The position numbers and the translations under genes are program-made. A model generated the notes under the pieces. That model saw only the letters and a program-made list of their open reading frames with translations. It was not told the DNA's origin and searched no databases. From the NCBI GenBank assembly GCA_016181965.1, contig JACOYH010000006.1, positions 1 through 42,800 of the forward strand: 42,800 nt of DNA. The letters are read 5' to 3'. Shown here piece by piece: positions 7,181 through 38,889 of this stretch (position 1 is the first letter of the stretch; the number at the start of each line of letters is the position of its first letter). Source of the DNA: Candidatus Nealsoniibacteriota bacterium. Its GTDB lineage: Bacteria; Patescibacteriota; Minisyncoccia; Minisyncoccales; MHMH01.

Positions 7181-7233
7181 GTTGGTTGAAGCCAGGCTCT
7201 AACCGACTCGGTTAGAGCCTGGCTTCAACCAAC
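7181..7233. repeat. Palindromic element family F1, copy 1
   Basis: gttggttgaagccaggctctaacc-gactc-ggttagagcctggcttcaaccaac, 24-bp perfect arms. Confidence 0.95.
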
Positions 7234-10996: not shown

Positions 10997-11070
10997 TGGC
11001 TGCGGGGCTAGGATTCGAACCTAGATAACGACATTCAGAGTGTCGGGTCCTACCATTAGACGACCCCGCA
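10997..11070 (-). tRNA. tRNA-Gln (anticodon CTG), CCA encoded
   Basis: Minus strand TGCGGGGTCGTCTAATGGTAGGACCCGACACTCTGAATGTCGTTATCTAGGTTCGAATCCTAGCCCCGCAGCCA. Confidence 0.9.
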
Positions 11071-11325
11071 ATGATTAATTATTTTTTTATTAAATAATTT
11101 CTTTAAAAATCTTCTCCCATTAGTTGATTTAAGAAATTTCTCTCTTTCTCTCGCTTTTTCAAAATCGTCAAACTCTTCAATATGTATAACCTCCCAAGGT
11201 TTATATCTTCTTGTATAAAAATGTTTTCCGAAGTTATGTTCTTTCAATCTCCTATGAATATCATTTGTCAAGCCAACATAACTTTTCTTAACGATACTAC
11301 TTTTTAGAACATACACGATATACAT
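11056..11325 (-). CDS. GIY-YIG nuclease-domain protein
   Basis: MYIVYVLKSSIVKKSYVGLTNDIHRRLKEHN; the ORF runs into the tRNA-Gln 5' end and stops at TAA in the tRNA D-arm. Confidence 0.85.
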   Translation of the reverse strand: MYIVYVLKSSIVKKSYVGLTNDIHRRLKEHNFGKHFYTRRYKPWEVIHIEEFDDFEKAREREKFLKSTNGRRFLKKLFNKKIINHCGVV

Positions 11326-11332
11326 ATATGTA

Positions 11333-11386
11333 TAGACGACCCGCCTCGACGAGCCCGCTCGTCGGGCGAGGCGGGCCCCGCAATGG
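11333..11386 (-). repeat. Truncated copy of the tRNA-Gln 5' end interrupted by a GC-rich palindrome
   Basis: Minus strand CCATTGCGGGG-[CCCGCCTCGCCCGACGAGCGGGCTCGTCGAGGCGGG]-TCGTCTA versus CATTGCGGGGTCGTCTA at the intact tRNA. Confidence 0.8.
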
Positions 11387-18750: not shown

Positions 18751-18799
18751 TTGCCGAGGACTGTCCTTGCCAGATTCTGGCAAGGACAGTCCTCGGCAA
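18751..18799. repeat. Palindromic element family F2, copy 1 (24-1-24)
   Basis: ttgccgaggactgtccttgccaga-t-tctggcaaggacagtcctcggcaa. Confidence 0.95.
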
Positions 18800-22024: not shown

Positions 22025-22100
22025 TGGTGCCCCCAGTAGGACTCGAACCTACAACCATCACCTTAAAAGGGTGTTGCTCTACCAATTGAGCTATGAGGGC
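22025..22100 (-). tRNA. tRNA-Lys (anticodon TTT), CCA encoded
   Basis: Minus strand GCCCTCATAGCTCAATTGGTAGAGCAACACCCTTTTAAGGTGATGGTTGTAGGTTCGAGTCCTACTGGGGGCACCA. Confidence 0.92.
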
Positions 22101-22141
22101 AAATTTTCTGTTATATTTTTAATAAATTCTCTGCCTATATC

Positions 22142-22239
22142 GCCTTAGAAAGTTTATCCGCCTTTGGCGGAGTGTTGCCTCGCCCATGGCGAGTAAATCT
22201 ACCAATTGACCTGCCCGCCGCAGGCGGGGCTATGAGGGC
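22142..22239 (-). pseudogene. Truncated tRNA-Lys 5' half interrupted by three ~19-nt palindromic inserts
   Basis: GCCCTCATAGC-[CCCGCCTGCGGCGGGCAGG]-TCAATTGGTAGA-[TTTACTCGCCATGGGCGAG]-GCAACAC-[TCCGCCAAAGGCGGATAAA]-CTTTCTAAGGC. Confidence 0.85.
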
Positions 22240-26398: not shown

Positions 26399-26450
26399 TT
26401 GGTTGAAGCCAGGCTCTAACCAAGCTTGGTTAGAGCCTGGCTTCAACCAA
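26399..26450. repeat. Palindromic element family F1, copy 2 (52-bp perfect palindrome)
   Basis: ttggttgaagccaggctctaaccaag/cttggttagagcctggcttcaaccaa. Confidence 0.95.
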
Positions 26451-26917: not shown

Positions 26918-26964
26918 TGCCGAGGACTGTCCTCGCCAGATTCTGGCGAGGACAGTCCTCGGCA
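26918..26964. repeat. Palindromic element family F2, copy 2 (23-1-23)
   Basis: tgccgaggactgtcctcgccaga-t-tctggcgaggacagtcctcggca. Confidence 0.95.
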
Positions 26965-26971
26965 AAGTCCT

Positions 26972-38172: not shown

Positions 38173-38889
38173 TTATTCTATTCCTACCTGTTCAAAATCG
38201 GCTAACTCTTTTTTAAACTGAAGCCAATCATTCACAAATCTTTGACTCTCTTTTGTCCCGCCAATCTCTTCAAGCAAAAATTCCCTACTGGTCACTGATG
38301 GGAAATTTTTTCTGCTTAAATAATCGGAATAGCTTGACCATCGATAATTTTCTATGAATTTTATTACCCTTTGCAAGGCCTCGCCCTTAATGCCTCTTTC
38401 CTTCCATTTCGGCACTAAAATAGCCACCGGATTAGTATGAATATAAACAAAAACTGTCAATAATTGCTTATCATTTTTAATATGGACAATCCGATATTTA
38501 CCCTGAAATAGATGACCGCTTCTTTTATATTTTTTGTTGTAATAGCCGCCATATCCCGCTCCGATCTTCCTCATTAGTTTACTAATGCCTCCTTCCTTCA
38601 GCTGTCTTACTAATAAATGCACATGATTCGACATCAAACAAAATGCTAAAATCTCAGTTAAAAGCTTTCTTGGTTCCCTTTCTATCGGTAATGAGTCGAG
38701 AACCGTTCTCGACCTATTTATCGTGTTGCGATATGACGATGCCGCAGGCGCCTCATTGTTAAATACAAATAAATCGTGAATCATTCTTAAAAAATCTTTT
38801 TGGTTACGAAAAAGTTCTATGTTCTCTATCGCTCGAATAACAATGTGGTAGATTTCTCCGTTAGCTAGTTGTGGTCGCTTGATAGGCAT
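38173..38889 (-). mobile_element. REP-associated tyrosine transposase (RAYT / Y1_Tnp, IS200-like) gene
   Basis: GEIYHIVIRAIENIELFRNQKDFLRM, FCLMSNHVHLLVRQ (HUH), SGHLFQGKYRIVHI, FVYIHTNPV, YRWSSYSDYL. Confidence 0.9.
38693..38713. repeat. Palindromic family F3, copy 2 (inside the RAYT-like CDS, in frame)
   Basis: gagtcgagaac-c-gttctcgac; encodes RSRTVLDS. Confidence 0.95.

Follow-up and report, generated by a model that had tools for sequence, protein, structure and literature searches.

How did one half of a tRNA gene come to lie beside an intact copy of the same gene, and why is it broken by three short palindromes? Positions 22142-22239 of the window (the whole 42,800-nt stretch analysed, from a Candidatus Nealsoniibacteriota bacterium) raise this question. 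The first-pass annotation had described there, next to the intact tRNA-Lys, a tRNA-Lys half with three palindromic inserts of ~19 nt, each a 6-3-6 hairpin plus a 4-nt tail, and the sequence is as it described.

The displaced tRNA-Lys half and its relatives

When the three blocks are removed, 22142-22239 aligns collinearly with the 5′ half of the intact tRNA-Lys(TTT), the functional copy beside the element (22025..22100, minus strand; ARAGORN, Rfam tRNA 72.4 bits). Read along the minus strand, the copy ends at tRNA nt 1 with the 5′ end GCCCTCATAGC (22229..22239), followed by insert A (22210..22228, minus strand), which falls within the D stem, in its 5′ strand (GC^TC), and reads CCCGCCTGCGGCGGG-CAGG on the minus and CCTG-CCCGCCGCAGGCGGG on the plus strand. 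The D-loop block TCAATTGGTAGA (22198..22209, minus strand), identical with the intact tRNA, separates it from insert B (22179..22197, plus strand; CTCGCCCATGGCGAG-TAAA), which interrupts the D stem in its 3′ strand (GA^GC). A further identical block, GCAACAC (22172..22178, minus strand), leads to insert C in the anticodon stem (22153..22171, minus strand; TCCGCCAAAGGCGGA-TAAA on the minus and TTTA-TCCGCCTTTGGCGGA on the plus strand), and the half then closes with a decayed anticodon-loop region (22142..22152, minus strand). Each of the three inserts is exactly 19 nt long, a 15-nt palindrome (6-3-6) with a 4-nt tail. The ~40 bp between the half and the intact tRNA-Lys (22101..22141, minus strand; frame ..GREFIKN..) read as a remnant of the C terminus of a GIY-YIG endonuclease, for which a full ORF is present at the equivalent place in the relatives G003 and G005.

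Pattern searches, from which all genome-wide palindrome counts derive, located YCNGCCNNNGGCNGR at only nine sites in the entire 603-kb genome. Because two of these nine sites are within the displaced tRNA-Lys half, its inserts are not due to chance. Another of the nine is a 19-nt insert, CCTGCCTGCGGCAGG-CAGG, in another tRNA half away from this locus, immediately before an intact tRNA-Lys(CTT). The first-pass annotation had also singled out a shared TAAA tail. Inserts B and C do carry this tail, but it is not diagnostic, since the tails differ between inserts (TAAA, CAGG, CAAG and CGAG all occur), and the search it suggested, NCNGCC-NNN-GGCNGN-TAAA, returned one match only in the whole genome.

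Comparison with the same locus in relatives shows what stood between the two tRNA copies. In G003, of the same family, an 86% match supports the tRNA origin that had been claimed for the window's segment, and there the half and tRNA-Lys flank a complete small GIY-YIG gene (PF01541, E=4e-19). The G003 half is interrupted at the window's three positions, with three tandem units at the insert A site. G005 has the same arrangement plus an additional decayed tRNA copy; G008 has the GIY-YIG gene and the tRNA but no half, while G001, of the same genus, has neither gene nor half and shows a plain tRNA beside dnaJ. Insert C has its counterpart at this position in both G003 and G005, and G000, G003 and G005 share the three insert positions, with differing sequences. 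An Rfam scan of the tRNA-Lys site revealed no intron, and the tRNA copy adjoining the gene is intact. That inserts recur at matching positions in G003, in G005 and in other phyla rules out an ordinary tRNA pseudogene with chance hairpins. What 22142-22239 represents is the tRNA-Lys 5′ half that a tRNA-targeting GIY-YIG element displaced, not an ordinary pseudogene with random inserts.

The window contains a second case, with its gene intact. A small GIY-YIG endonuclease gene (11056..11325, minus strand; 89-aa frame, PF01541 E=6e-17) overlaps with its end the start of an intact tRNA-Gln(CTG) (10997..11070, minus strand; ARAGORN). On the far side, sequence reading reveals a displaced tRNA-Gln 5′ piece (11333..11382, minus strand) made up of TGCGGGG, a 36-nt hairpin (11340-11375) and TCGTCTA, and hairpins resembling this one are found in further tRNA-Gln elements, L122 and L210. 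Both the GIY-YIG gene beside the window's tRNA-Gln and the G003 gene carry the PF01541 GIY-YIG catalytic domain expected of a free-standing homing endonuclease.

Small GIY-YIG genes wedged into tRNA genes

The GIY-YIG loci surveyed come from 60 relatives and one named-genome scan, which covers Nealsonbacteria, other Patescibacteria, Omnitrophota, Bacteroidota, Ignavibacteria, Verrucomicrobia, Desulfobacterota, Myxococcota and others. A tRNA gene lies within 250 bp of 94 of the 169 distinct small GIY-YIG genes, and in all 94 cases it is on the same strand. Some 80 of the loci had been gathered for their resemblance to members with a tRNA neighbour. In the sample drawn without regard to similarity, 48 of 94 small GIY-YIG genes are tRNA-adjacent, compared with ~6% expected. 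Partial copies of the neighbouring tRNA were sought on the gene's far side with an alignment that tolerates long insertions, using as cut the 99% null of mismatched tRNAs and shuffles. Copies above this cut were found in 50 of the 93 tRNA-adjacent cases. The other 43 gave no significant copy, and short pieces, such as the window's tRNA-Gln piece, score below the cut.

The 50 displaced copies comprise 32 five-prime and 18 three-prime copies, the latter located downstream of the GIY-YIG gene. Some 40-44 of the 50 extend as far as tRNA nt 1 or the last tRNA nt, beyond which the flanks are unrelated; 5 continue past the tRNA end. Ending at the tRNA ends would be expected of an element that supplies a replacement part and pushes the original aside. 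In many uncultured bacteria, a small GIY-YIG gene is wedged into tRNA genes, with this architecture and with boundaries at the tRNA ends.

Partial tRNA duplication at the boundary of an element is typical of integrases, and the halves might stem from an integrase element that duplicated its attachment site in the ordinary way, with chance insertions acquired later. In the loci read, however, only the GIY-YIG ORF lies between the copies. In addition, 5′ halves outnumber 3′ halves, while duplication of the 3′ end is the typical integrase pattern, and hairpins are near universal in the copies. We therefore regard an integrase origin as highly improbable.

GIY-YIG genes without a tRNA neighbour are often located within long inverted repeats (L115, L121, L139, L153, L163, L170, L184, L264, L273, L119 and L132). 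Two of these, L264 and L273, are in 16S rRNA, and two more, L119 and L132, are at a site that resembles RNase P RNA by sequence (..GGGGAGGAAAGTCCGAAC), which Rfam did not confirm. Such genes also occur just upstream of a possible start codon, in the arrangement ..CCCCGTAG-gene-CTACGGGGTATG.

Hairpins in the displaced copies and palindromes elsewhere

Of the displaced copies, 94% have a stem with a GC-weighted score of 5 or more, whereas the share is 15% for shuffles, 8% for distant segments and 40% for intact tRNAs; with a stricter stem cut the values are 58% versus 2-3%. The insert boundaries seen in the window recur at other loci: among 59 inserts of at least 12 nt, from 41 displaced copies in many phyla, the most common length is 19 nt (16 inserts) followed by 20 nt (7), and the multiples 38 nt (three) and 57 nt (one) are present. 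Of the 30 inserts in 5′ copies, 27 follow tRNA nt 9-12, 16-17 or 21-24, a grouping picked post hoc from the same data. In 3′ copies the T arm is a common place of interruption (G^TTCGA), and the T-arm motif GGTTCNA is therefore mostly lost from the displaced copies, being intact in 3 of 21 of them compared with 16 of 21 intact tRNAs. Outside the inserts, identity with the tRNA is 100% in 14 copies and at least 95% in 25, half of the 50, which indicates that the hairpins precede point decay. Placement purely against recombination, minimising shared blocks, was rejected, as the hairpins sit in the arms whatever the copy length. The first-pass interpretation is partly supported. What it had overlooked is this context of a GIY-YIG element, in which nearly every displaced half bears hairpins, at stereotyped places that lie mainly in the D or T arm.

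A module of the form pal-TAAA..GGG-CTTG-pal-TTCGA (pal, palindrome) recurs among 3′-type copies of several phyla. This recurrence, and the three insert positions shared by G000, G003 and G005 despite differing sequences, would fit a hairpin-bearing half that is conserved for itself as a functional RNA or DNA signal, such as a GIY-YIG leader or operator or a processing signal. Yet the window has lost its GIY-YIG gene, insert sequences and numbers vary freely, as the tandem units of G003 illustrate, and 3′-type elements have their copy downstream of the gene. Such a signal function appears quite improbable. At L303 1585, a partial 3′ copy of tRNA-Leu without a GIY-YIG gene has two palindromes in place of the T loop and is possibly an element minus its gene.

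Related palindromes are dispersed through other genomes. The sequence TCCGCCWWWGGCGGA is present in 43 of 147 order-level genomes at 1-6 copies each, with few matches to the control. Among its 64 distinct sites, 14 are within 500 bp of a tRNA and 5 are near GIY-YIG genes; others are in terminator loops and 16S helix tips. That the copies lie mostly in tRNA fragments was ruled out, only those 14 of 64 being near a tRNA. At L105 1679 and L308 1564, TCCGCCWWWGGCGGA lies in apparent 16S rRNA helix tips (5′ variable region; h44 tip). The 20-mer CCTGCCTGCCGGCAGGCAGG occurs in 86 of 380 genomes of the phylum, with up to 25 exact copies per genome and none of the reversed control, and the majority of the copies sampled are away from tRNA and GIY-YIG genes. 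In the msrB gene of G314 (L332 1501), the CCTGCCTGCCGGCAGGCAGG palindrome forms a 21-nt in-frame insert encoding the peptide LPAGRQA, which is absent from three same-genus orthologues. The dispersed copies together with this filled/empty comparison indicate that the palindromes are mobile or at least multiplying, and a mobile, or at least multiplying, dispersed non-coding family is well supported. Thus the suggestion, made from the window alone, of "a class of mini-palindromic insertion modules" is borne out by the related palindromes in other genomes and the msrB insert. As in classes of the SDR or RPE kind (see below), there are dispersed near-identical copies, and filled sites can be set against empty ones, in msrB and in displaced versus intact tRNAs. 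Other repeated palindromes are visible in the window: a long one, GAAGCCAGGCTCTAACC..GGTTAGAGCCTGGCTTC, at ~7186-7231 and ~26404-26449 (also L016 ~976-1016), with apparently at least three genomic copies, and GAGGACTGTCCTYGCCAGATTCTGGCRAGGACAGTCCTCG at ~18755-18795 and ~26920-26965.

The TCCGCC palindrome is present in 39 of the 92 genomes with small GIY-YIG genes compared with 4 of the 55 without (147 genomes; GIY-YIG genes counted roughly, as domain matches minus one for UvrC), and this association persists within families (permutation P=1e-4). Close to GIY-YIG genes (within 100 bp), the palindromes are also ~10-30x denser than at greater distances, an enrichment that comes partly from displaced tRNA copies in the "no tRNA" class that ARAGORN missed. 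Such co-occurrence could mean that the GIY-YIG machinery itself makes or moves the palindromes, as by-products or ends of a transposition-like reaction where DNA is structured, as in tRNA arms, terminators and rRNA helix tips. The copies in terminator loops and 16S helix tips point in this direction, as do the tRNA-less GIY-YIG genes in 16S, RNase P-like contexts and long inverted repeats. However, the 20-mer reaches its up to 25 copies per genome mostly, in the sample, away from GIY-YIG genes, and since most palindrome copies are outside GIY-YIG elements they are not made only there. We are not aware of any GIY-YIG enzyme that inserts short palindromes. This origin is unlikely; also rather unlikely is its wide form, in which small GIY-YIG nucleases would drive an undescribed transposition-like seeding of 15-20-nt palindromes into hairpin-forming DNA of many phyla and so seal the displaced tRNA part.

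In REP/REPIN sequences, the tetranucleotide is conserved and of GTAG/GGAG type. The tails here are TAAA, CAAG, CAGG and CGAG, and rather than inverted doublets, single palindromes and direct tandems are common, though facing pairs also occur. The combination of hairpin and tetranucleotide nevertheless resembles REP organization (PMC3116915), and this genome has 7 Y1 genes. The palindromes might then be REP-like units that Y1 (RAYT/IS200-type) transposases move into single-stranded hairpins, the tRNA halves merely being a place where they can be read. Neither clustering with nor dependence on a Y1 gene was found, however: the co-occurrence with Y1 transposases is gone within families (P=0.17), and the hairpin flanking the window's Y1 gene is a different one. 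Y1/RAYT mobilization of the GCC palindromes was rejected on these two grounds. Moreover, three units in one 45-nt half are hardly random, given about nine such palindromes in the genome. Overall, the Y1 explanation is improbable. The window's Y1 (IS200/RAYT-type) gene, with three flanking TCGAGAACCGTTCTCGA hairpins (38150, 38434-38658, 38696 and 38911), is classical REP-like, unlike the GCC palindromes.

A candidate mechanism and its relation to known systems

We favor, with slightly more confidence than doubt, a tRNA-targeting homing-type GIY-YIG element in which mini-palindromes disarm the displaced tRNA fragment. A free-standing element of this type would occupy a tRNA gene and supply the tRNA's missing part itself. 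One intact tRNA would remain beside the predicted nuclease gene, and the other fragment, which we infer to be the host's original, would be pushed to the far side as a 5′ half upstream or a 3′ half downstream. This fragment carries GC-rich mini-palindromes of typically 19-20 nt (a 15-16-nt hairpin plus a 4-nt tail), which belong to the dispersed, apparently mobile family, lie mostly at stereotyped D- or T-arm points and would be put there by a putative inserting enzyme. Most likely, the palindromes would be retained because they ruin the fragment as a tRNA, as a nuclease target and as a recombination partner that would delete the element. Hairpins near the ends of some copies are in a suboptimal position for blocking recombination.

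The phage enzyme SegB, a tRNA-associated GIY-YIG enzyme, prefers RAWTSGAAC (PMC13096335). Judged by sequence, this motif can be read as T-arm sequence on the opposite strand, which the hairpins of 3′ copies break; this known relative lends support to the targeting part of the proposal. The main difficulty is that the intact tRNA by the nuclease has D and T arms like those of the copy, and ruining the target could not by itself keep the element safe; donor alleles, according to the paper on SegB, are usually poorly cut (PMC13096335). SegB and related phage free-standing GIY-YIG homing endonucleases are likewise small, not intron-borne and located by tRNA genes of many isotypes, and the motif SegB prefers equals the tRNA T arm (PMC13096335). 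In contrast, the elements here are in bacterial genomes, encode domain-only enzymes (80-90 aa) and split the tRNA gene, with an intact copy regenerated and a hairpin-bearing fragment displaced. In rRNA genes of CPR bacteria, GIY-YIG ORFs occur in non-intron inserts, most at the tops or bases of stem-loops (PMC11270868); those insertions differ in targeting rRNA, with no tRNA duplication and no palindromic units described. A search of the open-licence literature turned up no account of GIY-YIG elements that split tRNA genes and leave displaced copies with hairpins. These elements add a widespread bacterial class to a kind of enzyme near tRNAs so far described in phages.

The palindrome sequences themselves were likewise not found in the open-licence literature search. 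Small dispersed repeats (SDR) of cyanobacteria are mobile hairpin units of ~21-27 nt, and Rickettsia palindromic elements (RPE), of ~100-150 bp, are inserted in frame in protein genes. The 20-mer in msrB shares this in-frame insertion with RPE, but the palindromes here are of 15-20 nt. SDR are named in PMC3116915; in comparison, the present palindromes are of a different sequence class, have a wider host range and are tied to tRNA fragments and GIY-YIG genes. REP/REPIN with RAYT (PMC3116915) are alike in being very short dispersed palindromes with a flanking tetranucleotide, while the units here are 15-20 nt, cross-phylum, without a within-family Y1 link and with readable 19-nt boundaries. They appear to be among the smallest mobile DNA units. 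As the intact tRNA adjoins it, the displaced copy is a built-in ruler for the length, position and orientation of tiny insertions across phyla, and the multiplication of bacteria's smallest palindromic repeats, a long-open question, becomes directly testable with a candidate enzyme family attached. The displaced copies would in addition be a source of tRNA fragments, and the palindromes a source of odd peptides (LPAGRQA) in metagenome proteins. Peptides of the LPAGRQA type in such proteins possibly often derive from the 20-nt palindrome.
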